Shown one piece after another: positions 1,354-13,854 of a stretch of DNA of 20,444 bases. Each line of letters opens with the position of its first letter. The first letter of the stretch is position 1. Under the pieces are notes generated by a model that saw only the letters and a program-made list of their open reading frames with translations, was not told the origin of the DNA and did no database searches. Made by a program: the position numbers and the translations under genes. Location of the stretch: positions 1 through 20,444 of the IMG/VR virus record IMGVR_UViG_3300020220_000422; one strand, written 5' to 3'. The stretch comes from a virus.

Positions 1354-2893
1354 AAACTGTGGGTCATCGGATGGCAATGCGTTGTATTCCGATGGCCACA
1401 CTTTTTGTTTTGTATGTCATCACCGTACTGATAGTAACGGCACAAATCACAATCACAACAACATGTCACCCCATGTACAACTCAAAGGGACCGCCCAACG
1501 TCTTCCCAAAAGAAACATTTCAGAAAAGGTTTGTGAGAAGTACAAAATCTACAGAGATGGAACTGTCTTACGCTTCCATTATTTCAGCGAGTCTGGAATA
1601 CTTCAAGGCTGCAAAATAAAAACCAAAGACAAGACATTTCGGTATGAAGGACAAACCACAGATGCCCTCTTTGGACAACATTTGTTTCCAACCTCTGGAA
1701 GACGAGTCGTTATCACTGAAGGAGAACTCGATGCGGCTTCATGTTGTGAAGCTATGCCGGGGTGGCCGATGGTCTCTATACCTAGCGGTGCCGCAGCGGC
1801 CAAGAAGTCGATTCAACGGGCTCTCCCCTGGCTCCAGGGTTATGAGGAGATTGTCTTGTTCTTCGACAATGACGAGGCAGGCCGTAAGGCAACGGAGGAG
1901 GCAGCAAGCGTATTGCCACCTGGCAAATGCACGATTGCATCACTCCAAGGTGATTACAAAGATGCGTCTGACGCCCTCATTGCCAATGACTCTCAAGCGA
2001 TTCGTGAGGCTATTTGGAATGCAAAACCTTACCGTCCAGATGGGATCGTTGATGGGAAATCGCTCTTAGAACTTGTAACCACACCTACACCACCCTCTGA
2101 TCATGATTACCCATTTAGCGGACTCCAAAGAAAACTTCATGGTATCCGATACGGAGAACTTGTCACAATTACTGCAGGATCTGGTATTGGGAAATCATCT
2201 TTCTGCAGGGAGCTTGCGACTTCTCTTCTTCAAGGAGGAGAACGGGTCGGTTATCTGGCTCTTGAGGAATCAAACCGTAGAACTGCTTTGGGACTGATGT
2301 CCTCAGCAGTCGGTAAATCATTACACCTTGGAGAACATGACCGATCTACTCTCACCCAAGCGTATCAGGATACTCTTGCTAACTGGAATCTCTTTCTTTT
2401 CGACGGCTTTGGTTCTTATGATCCTGATCTTATCTACAACCGAATTGAGTACCTGGCAGCAGGTCTTGATGCACGGGTCATCTTTTTAGACCACCTCTCA
2501 ATCCTTCTTAGTGGGCTTGATGGTGATGAACGTCGAATGATCGACACCACCATGACCAAGCTTCGCTCATTAGTTGAGCGGACAGGTGTGGCAATGTTTC
2601 TTGTATCGCACCTACGTCGAACATCTAATGACAAAAATCACGAAGAGGGGGCTCGTGTCACTTTGGGGCAGCTCAGGGGAAGCGCAGCTATTGCTCAACT
2701 CTCTGACGGAGTTATCGCGCTTGAAAGAGATCAACAGGCCACATCTGGAGGAAGTGATACGACAGTGCGAGTCCTTAAAAATCGCTATTCAGGCGAAGTT
2801 GGCATCGCGTGCCAACTGACATACGACTTGTCCACATGTAAATTCAATGAAACTGAAGCAGAAGAAGAGTTCGACGCTACCACCGACTTCTAA
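1304..2893 (+). CDS. DNA primase-helicase (T7 gp4-like)
   Basis: This 529-residue protein unwinds DNA and makes RNA primers at the phage fork. Domains in order: a zinc-binding domain with C16, C19, C35 and C38, spaced almost exactly as in T7 gp4; and a TOPRIM primase core with ITEGELDA (E139) and FFDNDEAG (D188, D190). The helicase domain follows, with Walker A GSGIGKSS (K297) and a Walker B-like segment VIFLDHLS (D396). The C-terminus is acidic (ETEAEEEF...DF), like the T7 tail that contacts the polymerase. I start at ATG 1304 rather than the TTG three bases upstream. An Asn/His-rich linker follows the zinc domain and leads to Met54, a possible internal start. Overlaps the preceding gene by 50 bases. 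Confidence 0.95.
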   Translation: MSTNDSNSEFVRHLPCENCGSSDGNALYSDGHTFCFVCHHRTDSNGTNHNHNNMSPHVQLKGTAQRLPKRNISEKVCEKYKIYRDGTVLRFHYFSESGILQGCKIKTKDKTFRYEGQTTDALFGQHLFPTSGRRVVITEGELDAASCCEAMPGWPMVSIPSGAAAAKKSIQRALPWLQGYEEIVLFFDNDEAGRKATEEAASVLPPGKCTIASLQGDYKDASDALIANDSQAIREAIWNAKPYRPDGIVDGKSLLELVTTPTPPSDHDYPFSGLQRKLHGIRYGELVTITAGSGIGKSSFCRELATSLLQGGERVGYLALEESNRRTALGLMSSAVGKSLHLGEHDRSTLTQAYQDTLANWNLFLFDGFGSYDPDLIYNRIEYLAAGLDARVIFLDHLSILLSGLDGDERRMIDTTMTKLRSLVERTGVAMFLVSHLRRTSNDKNHEEGARVTLGQLRGSAAIAQLSDGVIALERDQQATSGGSDTTVRVLKNRYSGEVGIACQLTYDLSTCKFNETEAEEEFDATTDF

Positions 2894-3014
2894 CGGTGAA
2901 CGTTACTTACATCTACCTACAGGAAAAATACTGCAAGCTCCTAAACCACCTACACCTGAGGCTGTAGCAAAAGCACAATTCGTAGACAAGACCTATGTAT
3001 GGTCTCCGAAATGA
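2847..3014 (+). CDS. Small protein between primase-helicase and DNA polymerase
   Basis: A 55-residue frame that begins inside the 3' end of the primase-helicase gene and ends in an ATGA overlap with the polymerase exonuclease start at 3011. It begins MKLKQKKSS and contains a proline-rich middle (APKPPTPEAV) and the ending FVDKTYVWSPK. The ~115 bases between the primase-helicase stop and the polymerase start are fully open in this frame, and the exact ATGA junction argues that it is translated. No recognisable Shine-Dalgarno sequence precedes the ATG. The function is unknown. The N-terminus is basic, with no membrane segment. Confidence is moderate because the protein is short. Confidence 0.6.
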   Translation: MKLKQKKSSTLPPTSNGERYLHLPTGKILQAPKPPTPEAVAKAQFVDKTYVWSPK

Positions 3015-3529
3015 ATCTTGTGTTTGATATTGAAACCGACGGACTTTACCATGATGTTACCTGCATCCACTGCATTGCAGTCACCGATCTCAACAGTGGT
3101 GAGAGTTATGTCTTTAATGATAATGGATCTAAACAGCCCATATCAAAAGGCATACAACTTCTTGAGGATGCTGATTGCATCATAGGCCACAACATAGTTC
3201 GCTATGACATTCCAGTCATTAAAAAGCTTTACCCTTGGTTTGATTCAAAAATCAAGGCAATAGACACATTGATTTTGTCTCGGTGCTATCACCCTGACAT
3301 GCTTGCCTTCGACAAAGAAAACAAATGGGCACACATGCCCTTGCAACTCCACGGACGACACTCCTTGGAAGCATACGGTTACCGTCTAGGTGAGTACAAA
3401 GGTCAGTTTGGTAAAACAACGGATTGGAAAGAATGGTCTCAGGAGATGCAGGACTACATGATTCAAGACGTAAAGGTAACAGAGAAACTATGGAAACACT
3501 TTGTCCCATACCTGAATGGATCTCACTAG
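3011..3529 (+). CDS. DNA polymerase, 3'-5' proofreading exonuclease part (T7 gp5 N-terminal half)
   Basis: This 172-residue protein corresponds to the exonuclease domain of family A T7-type DNA polymerase. Visible motifs are Exo I FDIETDG (D6, E8), Exo II IIGHNIVRYD (D66) and Exo III DYMIQDV (Y149, D153), plus the T7-like HSLEAYGYRLGE segment. All metal ligands are present, so proofreading should be active. The frame stops just after Exo III, where the linker to the polymerase domain begins in T7. The polymerase domain continues in the -1 frame from 3490, overlapping by 40 bases. I start at ATG 3011, which overlaps the upstream stop (ATGA); an ATG at 2999 adds four residues. A single-base sequencing error could also produce this split. 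Confidence 0.88.
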   Translation: MNLVFDIETDGLYHDVTCIHCIAVTDLNSGESYVFNDNGSKQPISKGIQLLEDADCIIGHNIVRYDIPVIKKLYPWFDSKIKAIDTLILSRCYHPDMLAFDKENKWAHMPLQLHGRHSLEAYGYRLGEYKGQFGKTTDWKEWSQEMQDYMIQDVKVTEKLWKHFVPYLNGSH

Positions 3530-4761
3530 AGCATAGGGTTGCACAAATCCTTTCCGACCAAGAAATCTATGGCTGGTACTTTGACGAAGAAGCAGCGCAT
3601 CGCCTTGAATCTACTTTGCGCTGCGAATTGGAGAACCTTACAAGATCTCTACGAGACAGACATCCTTTCGTTGCAGGAGCGGAATTTACTCCTAAGCGGG
3701 ATAACAGCAGCTCTGGCTATGTTGAGGGATGTACCTTCACACGTCTGAAGGATTTTAACCCGTCAAGTAGGGACCACATTGCGTGGGTCATGCAGACTTT
3801 CTATAAGTGGGTGCCTACTGAGTTCACAGAAAAGGGAAAACCAAGCATTGATGAAGTAGTTCTACATGACATTGGTACGCCAATGGCATTGGAGTTCTAC
3901 CGATGTTTGGATCTTACTAAAAAGTTAGGGATGCTCACGGAAGGAGTCAACGCCTGGCTGAAGTTAGTACGAAACAATCGAATACATCACAACTGTGAAA
4001 CTGCTACCAACACCTTTCGATGTGCTCATCGAAAACCAAATCTAGCTCAAGTGCCAAGCGAGGCTGAGTTCAGGAAACTCTTCTGTGCTAGCCCCGGTAT
4101 GTGCATGGTAGGTGCTGACCTTGCAGGTATTGAACTGCGTATGCTGGCTCATTACTTAGCAAGATACGACAAAGGACGATATGCAGATGTACTTCTTAAC
4201 GGTGACATTCACCAGGAGAATGCTGACAAGATAGGCATCAGTCGTCGATTAGTTAAGACGGTTACCTACGCCTTTCTCTACGGAGCAGGTAATCAAAAAA
4301 TCGGACTTTCATATGACCCTCAGTTATCCACAACCGCTGCGAGTAAAAAGGGTAAGGAGATACGTAAGGCATACATGGATGCAATTCCAGGATTGCAGGA
4401 ATTGGTTGAGGCGGTTAAGCGTAAGGCGGAAAGGAAAGGTGCGATCAGTGCTATTGACGGTCGCCGCATTGCTTGTGATGGCTCTCACAAAGCTCTGAAC
4501 TATTTACTTCAGGGCTCAGCCGCAGTCATTGCAAAACGTTGGATGCTTCTCACCCATGAGTGCATCATTCGTTGTGACATACAAGCTCATCAGTTGGCGT
4601 TCATCCACGATGAACTTCAGCTTGAATGTAAAGAAGAGAATGCGGAAGAACTTAAGTTCAGTTTATTGTGGGCAGCTCAGTCTGCTGGAGAATTTTACAA
4701 CCTTAGGATTCCTATCGCAGCCGAGGCAAAGCAAGGAACAAATTGGAACGAAGTCCACTAA
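3490..4761 (+). CDS. DNA polymerase, polymerase domain (T7 gp5 C-terminal half)
   Basis: This 423-residue protein corresponds to the thumb, palm and fingers of T7 DNA polymerase and lacks the exonuclease domain, which is encoded just upstream in another frame. After METLCPIPEW it matches T7 at LEHRVAQIL and FNPSSRDHI. Motif A is GADLAGIELRMLAHY (catalytic D210). Motif B is RRLVKTVTYAFLYGAG (K256, Y260, Y264), and motif C is FIHDELQLE (H373, D374). Y260 aligns with T7 Y526 and E. coli Pol I F762, the sugar-discrimination site. It ends NWNEVH, like NWAICH in T7. I chose ATG 3490 because earlier codons in this frame are shadow sequence. No canonical -1 slippery heptamer is seen in the overlap, so separate initiation is more likely than frameshifting. 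Confidence 0.9.
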   Translation: METLCPIPEWISLEHRVAQILSDQEIYGWYFDEEAAHRLESTLRCELENLTRSLRDRHPFVAGAEFTPKRDNSSSGYVEGCTFTRLKDFNPSSRDHIAWVMQTFYKWVPTEFTEKGKPSIDEVVLHDIGTPMALEFYRCLDLTKKLGMLTEGVNAWLKLVRNNRIHHNCETATNTFRCAHRKPNLAQVPSEAEFRKLFCASPGMCMVGADLAGIELRMLAHYLARYDKGRYADVLLNGDIHQENADKIGISRRLVKTVTYAFLYGAGNQKIGLSYDPQLSTTAASKKGKEIRKAYMDAIPGLQELVEAVKRKAERKGAISAIDGRRIACDGSHKALNYLLQGSAAVIAKRWMLLTHECIIRCDIQAHQLAFIHDELQLECKEENAEELKFSLLWAAQSAGEFYNLRIPIAAEAKQGTNWNEVH

Positions 4762-5110: not shown

Positions 5111-5231
5111 ATCACAACTAGCTCTGAAGGTATTTCAATCGAGAGCACGTTTCAAACATACAAGGCAAGGTAATGGTCAGCGCAGTCTGCCCTCGCACGG
5201 GCGCAAACTTAGGCGAGGACAAGGTAAGTGA
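5088..5231 (+). CDS. Small basic protein of unknown function
   Basis: A 47-residue, strongly basic protein beginning MPPKAKSRSQLALKVF and ending LRRGQGK, with FKHTRQGNGQRSL in the middle. It overlaps the end of the HNH gene by 23 bases, and its TGA overlaps the GTG start of the 5' exonuclease (GTGA). It fills the whole 117-base gap between those genes, and both junctions look translationally coupled. The R/K/G-rich C-terminus suggests nucleic-acid binding, but this is inference from composition. I recall similar short basic proteins ending in RGQG next to the exonuclease in other marine T7-like phages, but could not check this. Confidence 0.7.
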   Translation: MPPKAKSRSQLALKVFQSRARFKHTRQGNGQRSLPSHGRKLRRGQGK

Positions 5232-5956
5232 GCATATTGATTGATGCAGACTTTATTGTCTATAAGTGCTGTGCCGCAAACGAAACAGAAATTGACTGGG
5301 GTGATGACATCATCGTTGTCACCAGCCGATTCAGTGAGGCCTATGAAATGGTCGAACGGGAACTATACCGGATTGCCTGTGACCTTGGATGGTTTGATGA
5401 CAGTGTTCTGTTTTTTTCTGATACTGTCAACTTTCGCAAATCTATTGATCCAGAATATAAAGGACATCGCAATCGTAAGAAACCGTGCGGCTATCGACGA
5501 GTCATTAACAAACTCAAAGAAGAATACGAAGTCGTTGTCATGCCGACTTTAGAAGCTGATGATGCGATTGGAATATATGCCACTAAAAATGAAGGACATA
5601 TTATTTGTAGTCCTGATAAGGATATGCGTCAGATACCGGGTAAGTTGTACGACTTAAGTGAGGGTGTAGTAAATATAACAAAAGAAGATGGTGATAGATG
5701 GCACATGATACAAACTATGGCAGGAGATCAAACCGATGGATACGCCGGAATTCCTGGTATTGGTATCAAGAAAGCAGCTGCTTTACTTGATGAACATGGA
5801 GCAAGATGGGAAACCGTCCTTACTGCATTTGCTGAGAAAGATCTTTCGGAAGAGGTCGCTATCAAAAATGCAAGACTTGCAAAGATCTTACAAAATGATG
5901 ACTACGACTTCGCCAAGCAACAACCCATTCTTTGGACCCCCGCTACCTGTACTTGA
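5228..5956 (+). CDS. 5'-3' exonuclease, FEN family (T7 gp6-like)
   Basis: A 242-residue flap endonuclease/5' exonuclease that removes RNA primers and digests host DNA. Metal ligands are in the family order: D6 and D8 in LIDADF, D65 in FFSDTVNFR, E109, D111 and D112 in LEADDAIG, D130 and D132 in CSPDKDM, and D167 and D170 in GDQTDGY. The helix-hairpin-helix loop GIPGIGIKKA (174 onward) binds the DNA backbone. The GTG start overlaps the stop of the small basic gene (GTGA) and lets MSILIDAD begin the first strand of the fold. Its last 62 bases overlap the NblA-like gene in another frame. The protein is complete and somewhat shorter than T7 gp6. Confidence 0.92.
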   Translation: MSILIDADFIVYKCCAANETEIDWGDDIIVVTSRFSEAYEMVERELYRIACDLGWFDDSVLFFSDTVNFRKSIDPEYKGHRNRKKPCGYRRVINKLKEEYEVVVMPTLEADDAIGIYATKNEGHIICSPDKDMRQIPGKLYDLSEGVVNITKEDGDRWHMIQTMAGDQTDGYAGIPGIGIKKAAALLDEHGARWETVLTAFAEKDLSEEVAIKNARLAKILQNDDYDFAKQQPILWTPATCT

Positions 5957-6191
5957 TCTAAAAGTAGAACAACAATTTAAGCTACGTCAGATCGAAGATG
6001 CACTGCGTAATCCTGACACAAAGAAAGAAGATATCATTACGATCTTCATGGCACTTCAACGCCAGTGCTTTGTGCTTGGAAACAACATGACCAACTTACT
6101 GATGAAATGGCCACTACCAACTCCACAGGTCCAACCTACTACCGACGTGGATCCATCCAAGTTTGGGACTTCATACGGGATCAAGGGCTAA
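5895..6191 (+). CDS. nblA: NblA-like phycobilisome degradation protein
   Basis: This 98-residue protein matches the short NblA family in order and spacing. It has PPLP (15-18), LKVEQQFKLR (22-31), a charged turn, then a helix with ED (45-46), RQ (56-57) and NNMTNLL (63-69). Cyanobacterial NblA proteins (about 60 residues) share the PPLP, VEQQF and C-terminal RQ...N...M elements. NblA brings phycobilisomes to the Clp protease during starvation; phage copies are thought to speed antenna breakdown and amino-acid release. It is longer than the family, with an extra N-terminus (residues 1-14) and a Pro/Thr-rich tail after residue 72. It overlaps the exonuclease gene by 62 bases and the next gene by 85. 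ATG 5898 is an alternative start. The call rests on motif memory, not a search. Confidence 0.72.
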   Translation: MMTTTSPSNNPFFGPPLPVLDLKVEQQFKLRQIEDALRNPDTKKEDIITIFMALQRQCFVLGNNMTNLLMKWPLPTPQVQPTTDVDPSKFGTSYGIKG

Positions 6192-6406
6192 GTTTTCACT
6201 TAGGAAACGCAATCAAATACATATGTCGTGCGGGATATAAAGACAGCCGCATCTCAGATCTTCGCAAAGCAATCCACTATTTACAGAATGAGCTTGAATA
6301 CGAAATCTTTCATCAGCGACCAAGCAAAGGAGTTCAGGAAAAGTTTCCAGGTCAACAACAGTACGAAGCCAGCTTCACGGACTGGGCAGAAGAATTTGAT
6401 CGTTGA
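6107..6406 (+). CDS. DUF3310 protein (T7 gp1.7-like family)
   Basis: A 99-residue protein with the typical DUF3310 block: YYRRGSIQVWDFIRDQGL (11-28), FHLGNAIKYICRAG (30-43) and DLRKAIHYLQNELE (51-64). In T7 the related gene 1.7 product is a nucleotide kinase acting on dTMP/dGMP; most family members are uncharacterised, so the enzymatic role here is inferred. The conserved domain ends near residue 66. The last ~33 residues, which overlap the MazG-like gene in another frame, look unlike the family and are probably a by-product of that 119-base overlap. I start at Met 6107, since the upstream codons are the shadow of the NblA-like frame. Its neighbours MazG and ribonucleotide reductase also concern nucleotides. 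Confidence 0.85.
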   Translation: MATTNSTGPTYYRRGSIQVWDFIRDQGLSFHLGNAIKYICRAGYKDSRISDLRKAIHYLQNELEYEIFHQRPSKGVQEKFPGQQQYEASFTDWAEEFDR

Positions 6407-6677
6407 GGAATTCAAAGAGTTTCTAGAAGCTGATCAACAACTGCTTCTTGACTATAAGCGTAACTCCAGTGAATGTTTAAAAGAACTAGCAGATGTTGTA
6501 TATGTCTGCTACCAATATGCAGAAAACTTGGGATGGGATTTGGATGAAGCCCTAAACCGTGTTCATCAAAGCAACATGACCAAGCTTGGTAAGAATGGCC
6601 AACCAATCCTGCGTGAAGATGGAAAGGTTTTGAAAGGCCCAAATTATCAACCCCCTGTACTTACTGACCTCGTTTAA
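6288..6677 (+). CDS. mazG: MazG-like nucleoside triphosphate pyrophosphohydrolase
   Basis: A 129-residue all-helical NTP pyrophosphohydrolase of the MazG-like type. The metal-binding signature EExxE...ExxD is seen as E40, E41, E44 in IVEEFKEFLEA and E66, D69 in LKELADVVYV. The family ending LDEALNRVHQSNMTKLG follows, with a C-terminal strand (LKGPNYQPP). Such enzymes hydrolyse NTPs or dNTPs. In cyanophages they were proposed to alter (p)ppGpp or the nucleotide pool, but the substrate cannot be read from sequence. I start at Met 6288 so that the N-terminal helix FISDQAKEFRKSF is kept, which means a 119-base overlap with the DUF3310 gene. Its stop is followed two bases later by nrdA, suggesting coupling. 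Confidence 0.88.
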   Translation: MSLNTKSFISDQAKEFRKSFQVNNSTKPASRTGQKNLIVEEFKEFLEADQQLLLDYKRNSSECLKELADVVYVCYQYAENLGWDLDEALNRVHQSNMTKLGKNGQPILREDGKVLKGPNYQPPVLTDLV

Positions 6678-10861: not shown

Positions 10862-11671
10862 ATGTCTGAAACCCTAACTTATGACCCAACTCCACCCGCA
10901 GAGGTAATTGCTTCTCAGGAAGCTGACATGGCAGAATCTCTTGCGCTTGGGGAAGAGTTGATGGCACAGCAGGAAGGTCTGCTGGCTGGTAAATACAAAA
11001 ACGCACAAGAACTTGAACAGGCCTACGTCGAGCTACAACGCAAGCTAGGCAGTAAGGAAGATGACTCTGAATATGAGGAGACTGATGAAGGTTACTCTGA
11101 GGATGAACAAGTAGAGGAGGAGTCACAAGAGGAGTCGGATGACCCGACCATTGACTTCCTTTATGATGTTGATCAAGAGTACCAAACAAACGGAGAACTC
11201 AGCGAAGAAACCTTAGAGAGGTTTTCGCAGATGTCCTCTCGTGAATTGGTTGACGCATACTTCCGCTACCAACAACAAGTTGGACCTCAGCAACAATCAC
11301 AAGGTGTTGAGTTGTCTTCTGGTGAAATCAATGCAATCAAGAATTCTGTAGGCGGCGAAGCAGCTTATCAACAACTGACAGGCTGGGCAGCAGAAAACTT
11401 TACTCCTGCAGAAGTACAAGCTTTTGATTCTGTTGTGGAGTCAGGTAATACTGCAGCTATCAACCTTGCTCTGCAAGCACTTTACTATCGATACACTGAC
11501 GCTATGGGCTACGAAGGTGAAACACTACAGGGTAAACCCGCACGTTCTATGGACACCTTCCGTAGTCAAGCTGAACTTGTTCGTGCAATGAGTGACCCTA
11601 GATATGACAATGATCCTGCATATCGACAAGATGTGATGGATCGACTTGATCGATCTGACCTCAACTTCTAA
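10862..11671 (+). CDS. Capsid assembly scaffolding protein (T7 gp9-like)
   Basis: A 269-residue, strongly acidic protein placed between portal and major capsid genes as in T7. It would guide procapsid assembly and be absent from mature virions. Residues about 63-97 are a run rich in Asp, Glu and Ser (SEYEETDEGYSEDEQ and onward), followed by DPTIDFLYDVDQEY. The C-terminal half is helical, with GGEAAYQQLTGWAAENFT and a basic final segment (QDVMDRLDRSDLNF) like the capsid-binding ends of scaffolds. The start lies four bases after the portal stop. The stop overlaps the hli start in a TAATG junction. The capsid gene is 2.4 kb downstream, unusually far because of the accessory island. Confidence 0.9.
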   Translation: MSETLTYDPTPPAEVIASQEADMAESLALGEELMAQQEGLLAGKYKNAQELEQAYVELQRKLGSKEDDSEYEETDEGYSEDEQVEEESQEESDDPTIDFLYDVDQEYQTNGELSEETLERFSQMSSRELVDAYFRYQQQVGPQQQSQGVELSSGEINAIKNSVGGEAAYQQLTGWAAENFTPAEVQAFDSVVESGNTAAINLALQALYYRYTDAMGYEGETLQGKPARSMDTFRSQAELVRAMSDPRYDNDPAYRQDVMDRLDRSDLNF

Positions 11672-11841
11672 TGACTAAAAATATTTGGGCAAAAGAGCCA
11701 ACAATTTATATGGATCCTAATTACTACGAATCACATAATGAACGTGCTGAACTGCTCAACGGTCGGCTTGCAATGCTTGGCTTTGTAGCAGCAGTAGGTG
11801 CATATCTTGTTACTGGTCAAATTATCCCAGGAGTACTTTAA
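11671..11841 (+). CDS. hli: High-light-inducible protein (Hli)
   Basis: A 56-residue single-helix protein of the chlorophyll-binding family. The signature ExxNGRxAMxG is present as E27, N30, G31, R32, A34, M35, G37 in RAELLNGRLAMLGF. It continues into one transmembrane helix (LGFVAAVGAYLVTGQII). Hli proteins sit in the thylakoid membrane, bind chlorophyll and carotenoid, and protect photosystem II under stress; cyanophages often carry them with psbA. The N-terminus (MTKNIWAKEPTIYMDPN) is soluble. Both ends are TAATG overlaps, with the scaffold gene before and a 17-codon frame after, so it is embedded in the late operon. Confidence 0.92.
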   Translation: MTKNIWAKEPTIYMDPNYYESHNERAELLNGRLAMLGFVAAVGAYLVTGQIIPGVL

Positions 11842-12123: not shown

Positions 12124-12273
12124 ATGACTAAGCCTGGCCTTTATGCGAACATTCACGCTAAGCGTAAGCGTATCGCACAAGGAAGTGGAGAGACGATGCG
12201 TAAGCCTGGGACTGCAGGCGCTCCAACTTCCAAGCAATTTAAACAAGCAGCTAAGACTGCAAAGAAAAAATAA
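12124..12273 (+). CDS. Small basic protein of unknown function (49 residues)
   Basis: A 49-residue protein beginning MTKPGLYANIHAKRKRIAQG, continuing SGETMRKPGTAGAPTSKQF and ending AAKTAKKK. It directly abuts the preceding stop codon. The GLYANIHAKRKRI...GSGE...MRKPG pattern is one I recall as recurring among phages of marine and other bacteria, without a known function. It is highly basic, has no membrane segment and no cysteines. It sits in a run of three or four tiny basic genes between hli and the RlpA-like gene. Confidence 0.72.
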   Translation: MTKPGLYANIHAKRKRIAQGSGETMRKPGTAGAPTSKQFKQAAKTAKKK

Positions 12274-12284
12274 CGGAGTTAATC

Positions 12285-12407
12285 ATGCCTAATGTTGGTG
12301 GTAAAAAGTTTCCTTACACTCCTGCTGGTAAAGCAGCCGCTAAGAAGGAAGCAGCTAAAAGTGGCAAACCAGTAAAGATGAAGCCCTCAGTTAAAAAAGG
12401 GTATTGA
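12285..12407 (+). CDS. Small basic protein of unknown function (40 residues)
   Basis: A 40-residue protein, MPNVGGKKFPYTPAGKAAAK at its start and KPSVKKGY at its end, with alternating Lys and Ala. A GGAG motif lies six bases before the ATG, the clearest ribosome-binding site in this cluster. The K/P-rich composition resembles the two preceding proteins, suggesting nucleic-acid binding or packaging as virion minor proteins; this is inference only. It is the last gene before the noncoding stretch leading to the RlpA-like gene. Confidence 0.65.
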   Translation: MPNVGGKKFPYTPAGKAAAKKEAAKSGKPVKMKPSVKKGY

Positions 12408-12795: not shown

Positions 12796-13854
12796 ATGAC
12801 TGCAACTATCGCAGTACAACGCTCTCAGACTACATGGGAGCGTTTTTGTAGCTGGGTCACCAGCACTGATAAGCGTCTTTATGTTGGTTGGTTTGGGACA
12901 CTGATGATTCCGTGTCTCATTGCAGCCACTGCTTGCTTCATTCTTGCATTTGTTGCCGCTCCCCCCGTCGACATCGACGGCATCCGTGAGCCGGTATCTG
13001 GAAGTCTTCTTTATGGAAACAACATCATATCAGGAGCCGTCATTCCAAGCAGCAATGCCATCGGACTACACCTCTACCCAATTTGGGAAGCTAATTCACT
13101 TGATGAATGGCTCTACAACGGGGGGCCGTATCAGCTCACCGTCTTCCACTTTCTCATTGGTATCTATGCTTACCTGGGACGAGAGTGGGAACTTAGCTAT
13201 CGATTAGGAATGAGGCCTTGGATCTTTGTCGCATATTCAGCTCCGGTTGCAGCCGCAACGGCTGTATTCCTTGTCTATCCATTCGGTCAAGGTAGCTTCT
13301 CGGATGGTATGCCTCTCGGTATATCTGGTACGTTCAACTTTATGTTGGTCTTCCAAGCCGAGCATAACATTCTCATGCACCCGTTTCACATGCTTGGTGT
13401 TGCTGGCGTTTTCGGTGGGGCACTCTTTAGTGCAATGCACGGTTCACTTGTCACGTCCTCGCTTATTCGTGAGACGACTGAAGAAATTTCTCAAAACCGT
13501 GGTTACAAGTTTGGACAGGAAGAAGAGACTTATAACATTGTCGCTGCTCACGGCTATTTTGGTAGGCTTATCTTCCAGTACGCTTCCTTTAATAACAGCC
13601 GTAGTCTTCACTTCTTTCTCGCTGCTTGGCCTGTGGTCGGCATTTGGCTTACTTCACTTGGAGTAAGTACAATGGCGTTCAACCTGAACGGCTTCAACTT
13701 CAACCAGTCGATCCTGGATTCCCAGGGTCGTGTGCTGAACACCTGGGCCGACGTGCTGAACCGCGCTGGTCTGGGCATGGAAGTGATGCACGAGCGCAAC
13801 GCTCACAACTTCCCGCTGGACCTGGCCACTCATACAGCTCCAGTTATCGGTTGA
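12796..13854 (+). CDS. psbA: Photosystem II D1 protein
   Basis: This 352-residue D1 reaction-centre protein would replace damaged host D1 in the thylakoid membrane. Numbering matches host D1. E130 is present (the high-light D1:2-type residue), as are Y161 (TyrZ), D170, E189, H190, H198, H215, S264, H272, H332, E333, H337, D342 and A344, so all manganese-cluster, chlorophyll, iron and quinone ligands are intact. The C-terminal extension after A344 is only THTAPVIG, eight residues, about half the usual cyanobacterial length. Codons 296-345 are strikingly GC-rich at third positions (42 of 50) compared with the 50 codons before (23 of 50, hand count), indicating recombination with a host copy. 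It follows the RlpA-like gene by eight bases. Confidence 0.98.

Follow-up and report, generated by a model that had tools for sequence, protein, structure and literature searches.

A 98-residue reading frame on the plus strand of DNA from an uncultured T7-like cyanophage, at positions 5895-6191 of the 20,444-nucleotide record IMGVR_UViG_3300020220_000422 (analysed over its whole length and called the window below), is very probably a genuine viral nblA, whose product would be a two-helix adaptor of the ClpC protease system. The original prediction, made from the sequence without database searches, had singled out this frame by the motifs PPLP, VEQQF-L (VEQQFKLR in the protein), ED, RQ and N..M..L, and these do follow one another in that order in the translated product (MMTTTSPSNNPFFGPPLPVLDLKVEQQFKLRQIEDALRNPDTKKEDIITIFMALQRQCFVLGNNMTNLLMKWPLPTPQVQPTTDVDPSKFGTSYGIKG). 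It had further claimed an overlap with both neighbouring genes, which amounts to 62 bases with the exonuclease and 85 bases with the DUF3310 gene, leaving 150 bases that belong to nblA only (Table 1).

The nblA frame and its overlaps

Table 1. Features of the nblA locus and related genes; positions refer to the window except for the last three rows, which refer to the phage loci named.
Feature	Position	Strand	Basis or remark
nblA, 98-aa NblA-family protein	5895..6191	+	ATG 5895 or 5898; stop 6189-6191
Helix 1 (residues 24-38), opened by VEQQFKLR (LTMEQ-type) motif	5964..6008	+	AlphaFold model, alignment
Helix 2 (residues 44-71), NLLMKW at its end, the position of the NblA phycobilisome-binding C-terminal motif	6024..6107	+	AlphaFold, sequence comparison
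nblA/exonuclease 3' overlap, coding for N-terminal extension and GPP	5895..5956	+	
nblA/DUF3310 5' overlap, C-terminal tail under influence of DUF3310 frame	6107..6191	+	Codon-position variation
T7 gp6-like 5'-3' exonuclease, upstream neighbour	5228..5956	+	phrog_107, E 1e-67
DUF3310 ('nucleotide kinase') gene, downstream neighbour	6107..6406	+	PF11753, E 1.2e-12; start ATG 6107 probable, picked from ORF sequence
MazG-like nucleotide pyrophosphohydrolase, beyond DUF3310	6288..6677	+	Domain/family matches
High-light-inducible (Hli) protein	11671..11841	+	PF00504, 23 bits
psbA, photosystem II D1 protein	12796..13854	+	PF00124, E 1.2e-88
nblA homologue in P-SSP7 (L032)	1507-1815		
nblA homologue in NATL1A-7 (L037)	1510-1782		
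nblA homologue in P-GSP1 (L195), divergent	~2180-2405		

With coding genes overlapping it at both ends and a GPP motif that is partly set by the end of the exonuclease, the frame could be suspected of being a non-functional opening, overprinted by chance between exonuclease and DUF3310. The 150 bases exclusive to nblA strongly contradict this. Among 24 sequences, the differences in this part are 0.31, 0.15 and 0.54 at codon positions 1, 2 and 3, so that position 2 is held far more tightly than position 3. Compared with the nearest dozen relatives, dN is only ~0.1-0.2 at a dS that has reached or nearly reached saturation; for close pairs the dN/dS is ~0.03-0.24. In 29 IMG/VR loci the gene is conserved in the corresponding position; it is kept across several phage genera and has relatives (E up to 1) in 37 phage records, all of them from cyanophages or uncultured marine phages. 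Outside the overlaps the frame is under strong purifying selection, and comparative sequence analysis confirms it as real; a chance origin is scarcely credible.

The overlaps have left their mark on both ends of the protein. The conserved start ATG of the relatives corresponds to window position 5904, which reads ACG in this phage, a change that is silent for the exonuclease (TAT/TAC). The window nblA therefore starts at 5895 or 5898, two or three codons further upstream than in its podoviral relatives. The extra terminal parts described in the original prediction do exist, with ~18 residues at the N terminus and ~26 at the C terminus, but they are mostly by-products of the overlap with exonuclease and DUF3310 and not new domains. 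The exonuclease ends in a conserved PILWTP, also found in Tangaroavirus phages without nblA, which dictates in part the N-terminal PP/GPP motif. In the overlap with DUF3310, NblA codon positions 1, 2 and 3 differ by 0.19, 0.40 and 0.33; the most variable one, position 2, is the wobble position of DUF3310; it is therefore DUF3310 that constrains the C-terminal tail. The same tail is shortened by stops in S-TIP37, S-SBP1, KBS-P-1A and others. Since GPP is partly forced by the exonuclease end and the tail follows DUF3310, most of both extensions can be attributed to the overlaps.

Some other features of the window were recorded along the way. The DNA polymerase is found in two overlapping frames at 2999-4761, one with the 3'-5' exonuclease part and one with the polymerase part; the annotation of S-TIP37 carries the same division as 'split protein or frameshift'. 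Upstream of psbA, two tiny lysine-rich ORFs (49 and 40 aa, 12124-12407) are flanked by a DUF6321 gene and a gene for a DPBB/RlpA-like lytic transglycosylase. A search of the window with Rfam retrieved no RNA families.

Evidence for membership in the NblA family

A comparison with the NblA family profile had been proposed as a check, and its outcome depends on which sequence is asked. On its own, the window protein reaches 13.9 bits against PF04485, under the Pfam gathering cut-off of 25 bits, and at E 0.001 the profile matched nothing over the whole window record. Orthologues from the same locus of other T7-like cyanophages, about half identical to the window protein, do clear the cut-off over the whole domain, namely S-TIP37 with 27.8 bits and two further loci with 31.3 (L030) and 33.0 bits (L027), and PF04485 matches at E up to 1 are seen in 19 of the 22 viral members. 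To take the missing Pfam match of the window sequence alone as a refutation would have misled. In the window protein and its close relatives the turn between the helices is two residues longer, and it is after this turn that the window's Pfam match breaks off.

More sensitive comparisons point to the same family. We gathered 15 cyanobacterial NblAs by genome searches. When the ORFs in all six frames of the window are searched with an HMM built on them, the nblA frame is the sole find, at E 2.2e-5, and the next candidate has E 0.89. The best sequence match in the PDB is 3cs5, a crystal structure of NblA (E 0.0016), a match that owes part of its strength to the PPLP stretch, where the likeness is likely coincidental. 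When the core without PPLP is used, the best cellular match drops to E ~0.002 on the scale of 1000 sequences. Aligning the viral with the cellular profile in hhalign gives a probability of ~96% (95.9%) with E 5.6e-9 over 56 columns, and 96.2% is retained after removal of the PP segment. The corresponding scores are 47-50; in 100 column shuffles no score exceeded 15.4 and no probability 2.2%. Helix 2 by itself carries little sequence signal (3.7%). Conversely, the viral profile run over 98 cyanobacterial genomes retrieves mostly known NblA loci as its top matches. Within a picocyanobacterial family, it produced one clear match, which turned out to be a phage contig in a host bin. This contig (G223:C3) is T7-like, with DNA polymerase, exonuclease and MazG, and was binned with a picocyanobacterial species genome; its NblA-like protein is divergent and has a longer, charged C-terminal part.

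The structure prediction agrees with the helix-turn-helix that had been expected for the monomer. AlphaFold places helices at residues 24-38 and 44-71 in an NblA-like hairpin with disordered ends, and the isolated core also folds (pLDDT 84.5). Fold searches with Foldseek found nothing of significance, whether the full model was run against BFVD and the PDB or the core model against the PDB; against the PDB no NblA chain came up and all matches lay at E >1. VIA-align on the PDB matches of the full model likewise gave no significant result. With only two helices, the hairpin probably offers too little structure for such scores to be informative.

The known motifs can be located on this hairpin. 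The N-terminal motif reads LKVEQQFKLR in the window and ELTMEQQFKLR in most relatives, with E, Q and K invariant in the alignment, which recalls the LTMEQ-type motif described for NblA (PMC5083919). Close to the end of helix 2, L68 is invariant among the aligned viral members. It occupies the position of L51 in Anabaena NblA, one of two C-terminal residues, together with K53, that bind phycobiliproteins. At the K53 position the window has M70, followed by K71; the other members have K, A, T, R or S there. The M in place of K counts against the assignment to NblA, as do the longer turn and the weak signal of helix 2.

Could all this resemblance have arisen by convergence, in an unrelated helical hairpin protein of phages? 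The window protein belongs to phrog_27006 (E 4.7e-32), which PHROGs leaves unnamed, and the PDB fold search yielded no match to NblA. The sequence profiles, however, agree at the level of the family and orthologues clear the Pfam cut-off, which makes convergence very unlikely. Taken together, the Pfam scores of the orthologues, the match to 3cs5, the profile alignment, the reciprocal retrieval and the predicted hairpin support the original assignment, and the sequence and model data identify the window protein as a divergent member of the NblA family.

Distribution, targets and role in infection

In T7-like cyanophages the podoviral nblA site lies between the gp6-like exonuclease and DUF3310/MazG, and the window fits this arrangement. 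We find the gene at the exonuclease/DUF3310 junction in S-CBP1, S-TIP37, S-RIP2, P-SSP7 and others, often unannotated, and it is present where the phage exonuclease is ~57% or more identical to that of the window. At this locus it was not found in 9515-10a, NATL2A-133, Syn5, S-TIP28, SS120-1 and S-CBP42. In two of these, 9515-10a and NATL2A-133, the exonuclease directly overlaps DUF3310; such an empty site implies that nblA was gained or lost between the two genes. In S-RIP1, nblA lies in two frames (1693-2413 of its locus) and is separated from DUF3310 by an HNH endonuclease gene; the exonuclease is likewise in two pieces, so that sequence errors are possible.

The host range raises a puzzle. 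Prochlorococcus is described as lacking both phycobilisomes and nblA (PMC7439483). Homologues are nonetheless carried by the Prochlorococcus phages P-SSP7, P-SSP3 and NATL1A-7, and in divergent form by P-GSP1. The podoviral NblAs might form a separate branch of adaptors for which the phycobilisome is not the target, or not the sole one. We consider this improbable; if true, it would explain why nblA is retained at the same locus in Prochlorococcus phages. Also improbable is a reading in which an NblA-fold adaptor was re-targeted, still recruiting ClpC but delivering another host protein such as residual phycoerythrin or a non-antenna protein. The phages just named and their phycobilisome-free hosts speak for such re-targeting. 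Against it stand the nearest relatives of the window phage, S-CBP1, S-CBP3 and S-CBP4, which infect Synechococcus CB0101 and hence a host group that has phycobilisomes, and an activity of marine phage NblA on phycobilisomes, as related in PMC9602691.

Most likely, judging by the family, the window NblA steers phycobilisomes to ClpC/ClpP during infection. NblA is known as a dimeric helical hairpin in which one motif, close to the N terminus, contacts ClpC and another, close to the C terminus, phycobiliproteins (PMC4103541, PMC7760959, PMC7966870), and from this analogy come the dimer, the binding partners and the degradation of phycobilisomes proposed here. The gene would be expressed together with the replication genes and its product would dimerise. 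The end of helix 2 may then bind phycobiliproteins, while the N-terminal (L-T/K-x-EQ-x-F) region would bind ClpC, so that the antenna is handed to ClpC/ClpP. Its breakdown would release amino acids and lower light capture, and phage D1 and Hli would meanwhile sustain photosystem II. Both genes named in the original prediction are indeed in the window, and since Hli and psbA occur in the same phage, a combination of antenna removal with D1 supply is plausible.

Relation to known NblA systems

That phages carry NblA, in freshwater as in marine settings, was stated from the outset and is already in the literature, as far as PMC9602691 and PMC5083919 describe it. Nadel 2019, as reported in PMC9602691, predicted nblA in 14 cyanopodovirus isolates and observed loss of phycobilin when nblA from marine viral metagenomes acted in S. 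elongatus. A 2026 review (PMC12892361) relates from Nadel et al. 2025 (Nature 648:434), who followed this up, that viral NblA affects oceanic photosynthesis; in that review's account, viral NblA cuts the light capture of infected picocyanobacteria, an effect put at as much as 5% of photosynthetic light capture worldwide. Host, phage group and estuarine isolates suggest that the window locus corresponds to the podoviral nblA of Nadel et al. The gene is not new as a kind: podoviral nblA has been described, and the window adds a further, uncultured member.

The expectation that such a gene is easily left unnamed is borne out by the records of S-TIP37, S-SBP1, S-CBP3 and NATL1A-7, all of which omit it. 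As nblA overlaps both neighbours, is missing from such records and in most podoviral members scores under the Pfam cut-off, surveys that use only annotation or Pfam will undercount it.

Among known systems, the NblAs of T7-like cyanophages are the closest, sharing host group, phage type and family. Besides two identical contigs, the nearest viral relatives are 60-70% identical to the window protein, and that of S-CBP1 61%; the window phage differs in being uncultured. With cyanobacterial NblA (PF04485; 1ojh, 3cs5) it shares the EQQF opening helix 1, the helix-turn-helix and the L near the end of helix 2, but core identity is only ~25%, the turn is two residues longer and the terminal extensions are added. 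The NblAs of the freshwater cyanophages Ma-LMM01, MaMV-DC and PaV-LD are likewise phage-borne and have the LTMEQ-type N-terminal motif (PMC5083919). According to PMC9602691, however, their identity to host NblA is high, and the podoviral proteins of marine and estuarine origin cluster separately and at a distance.
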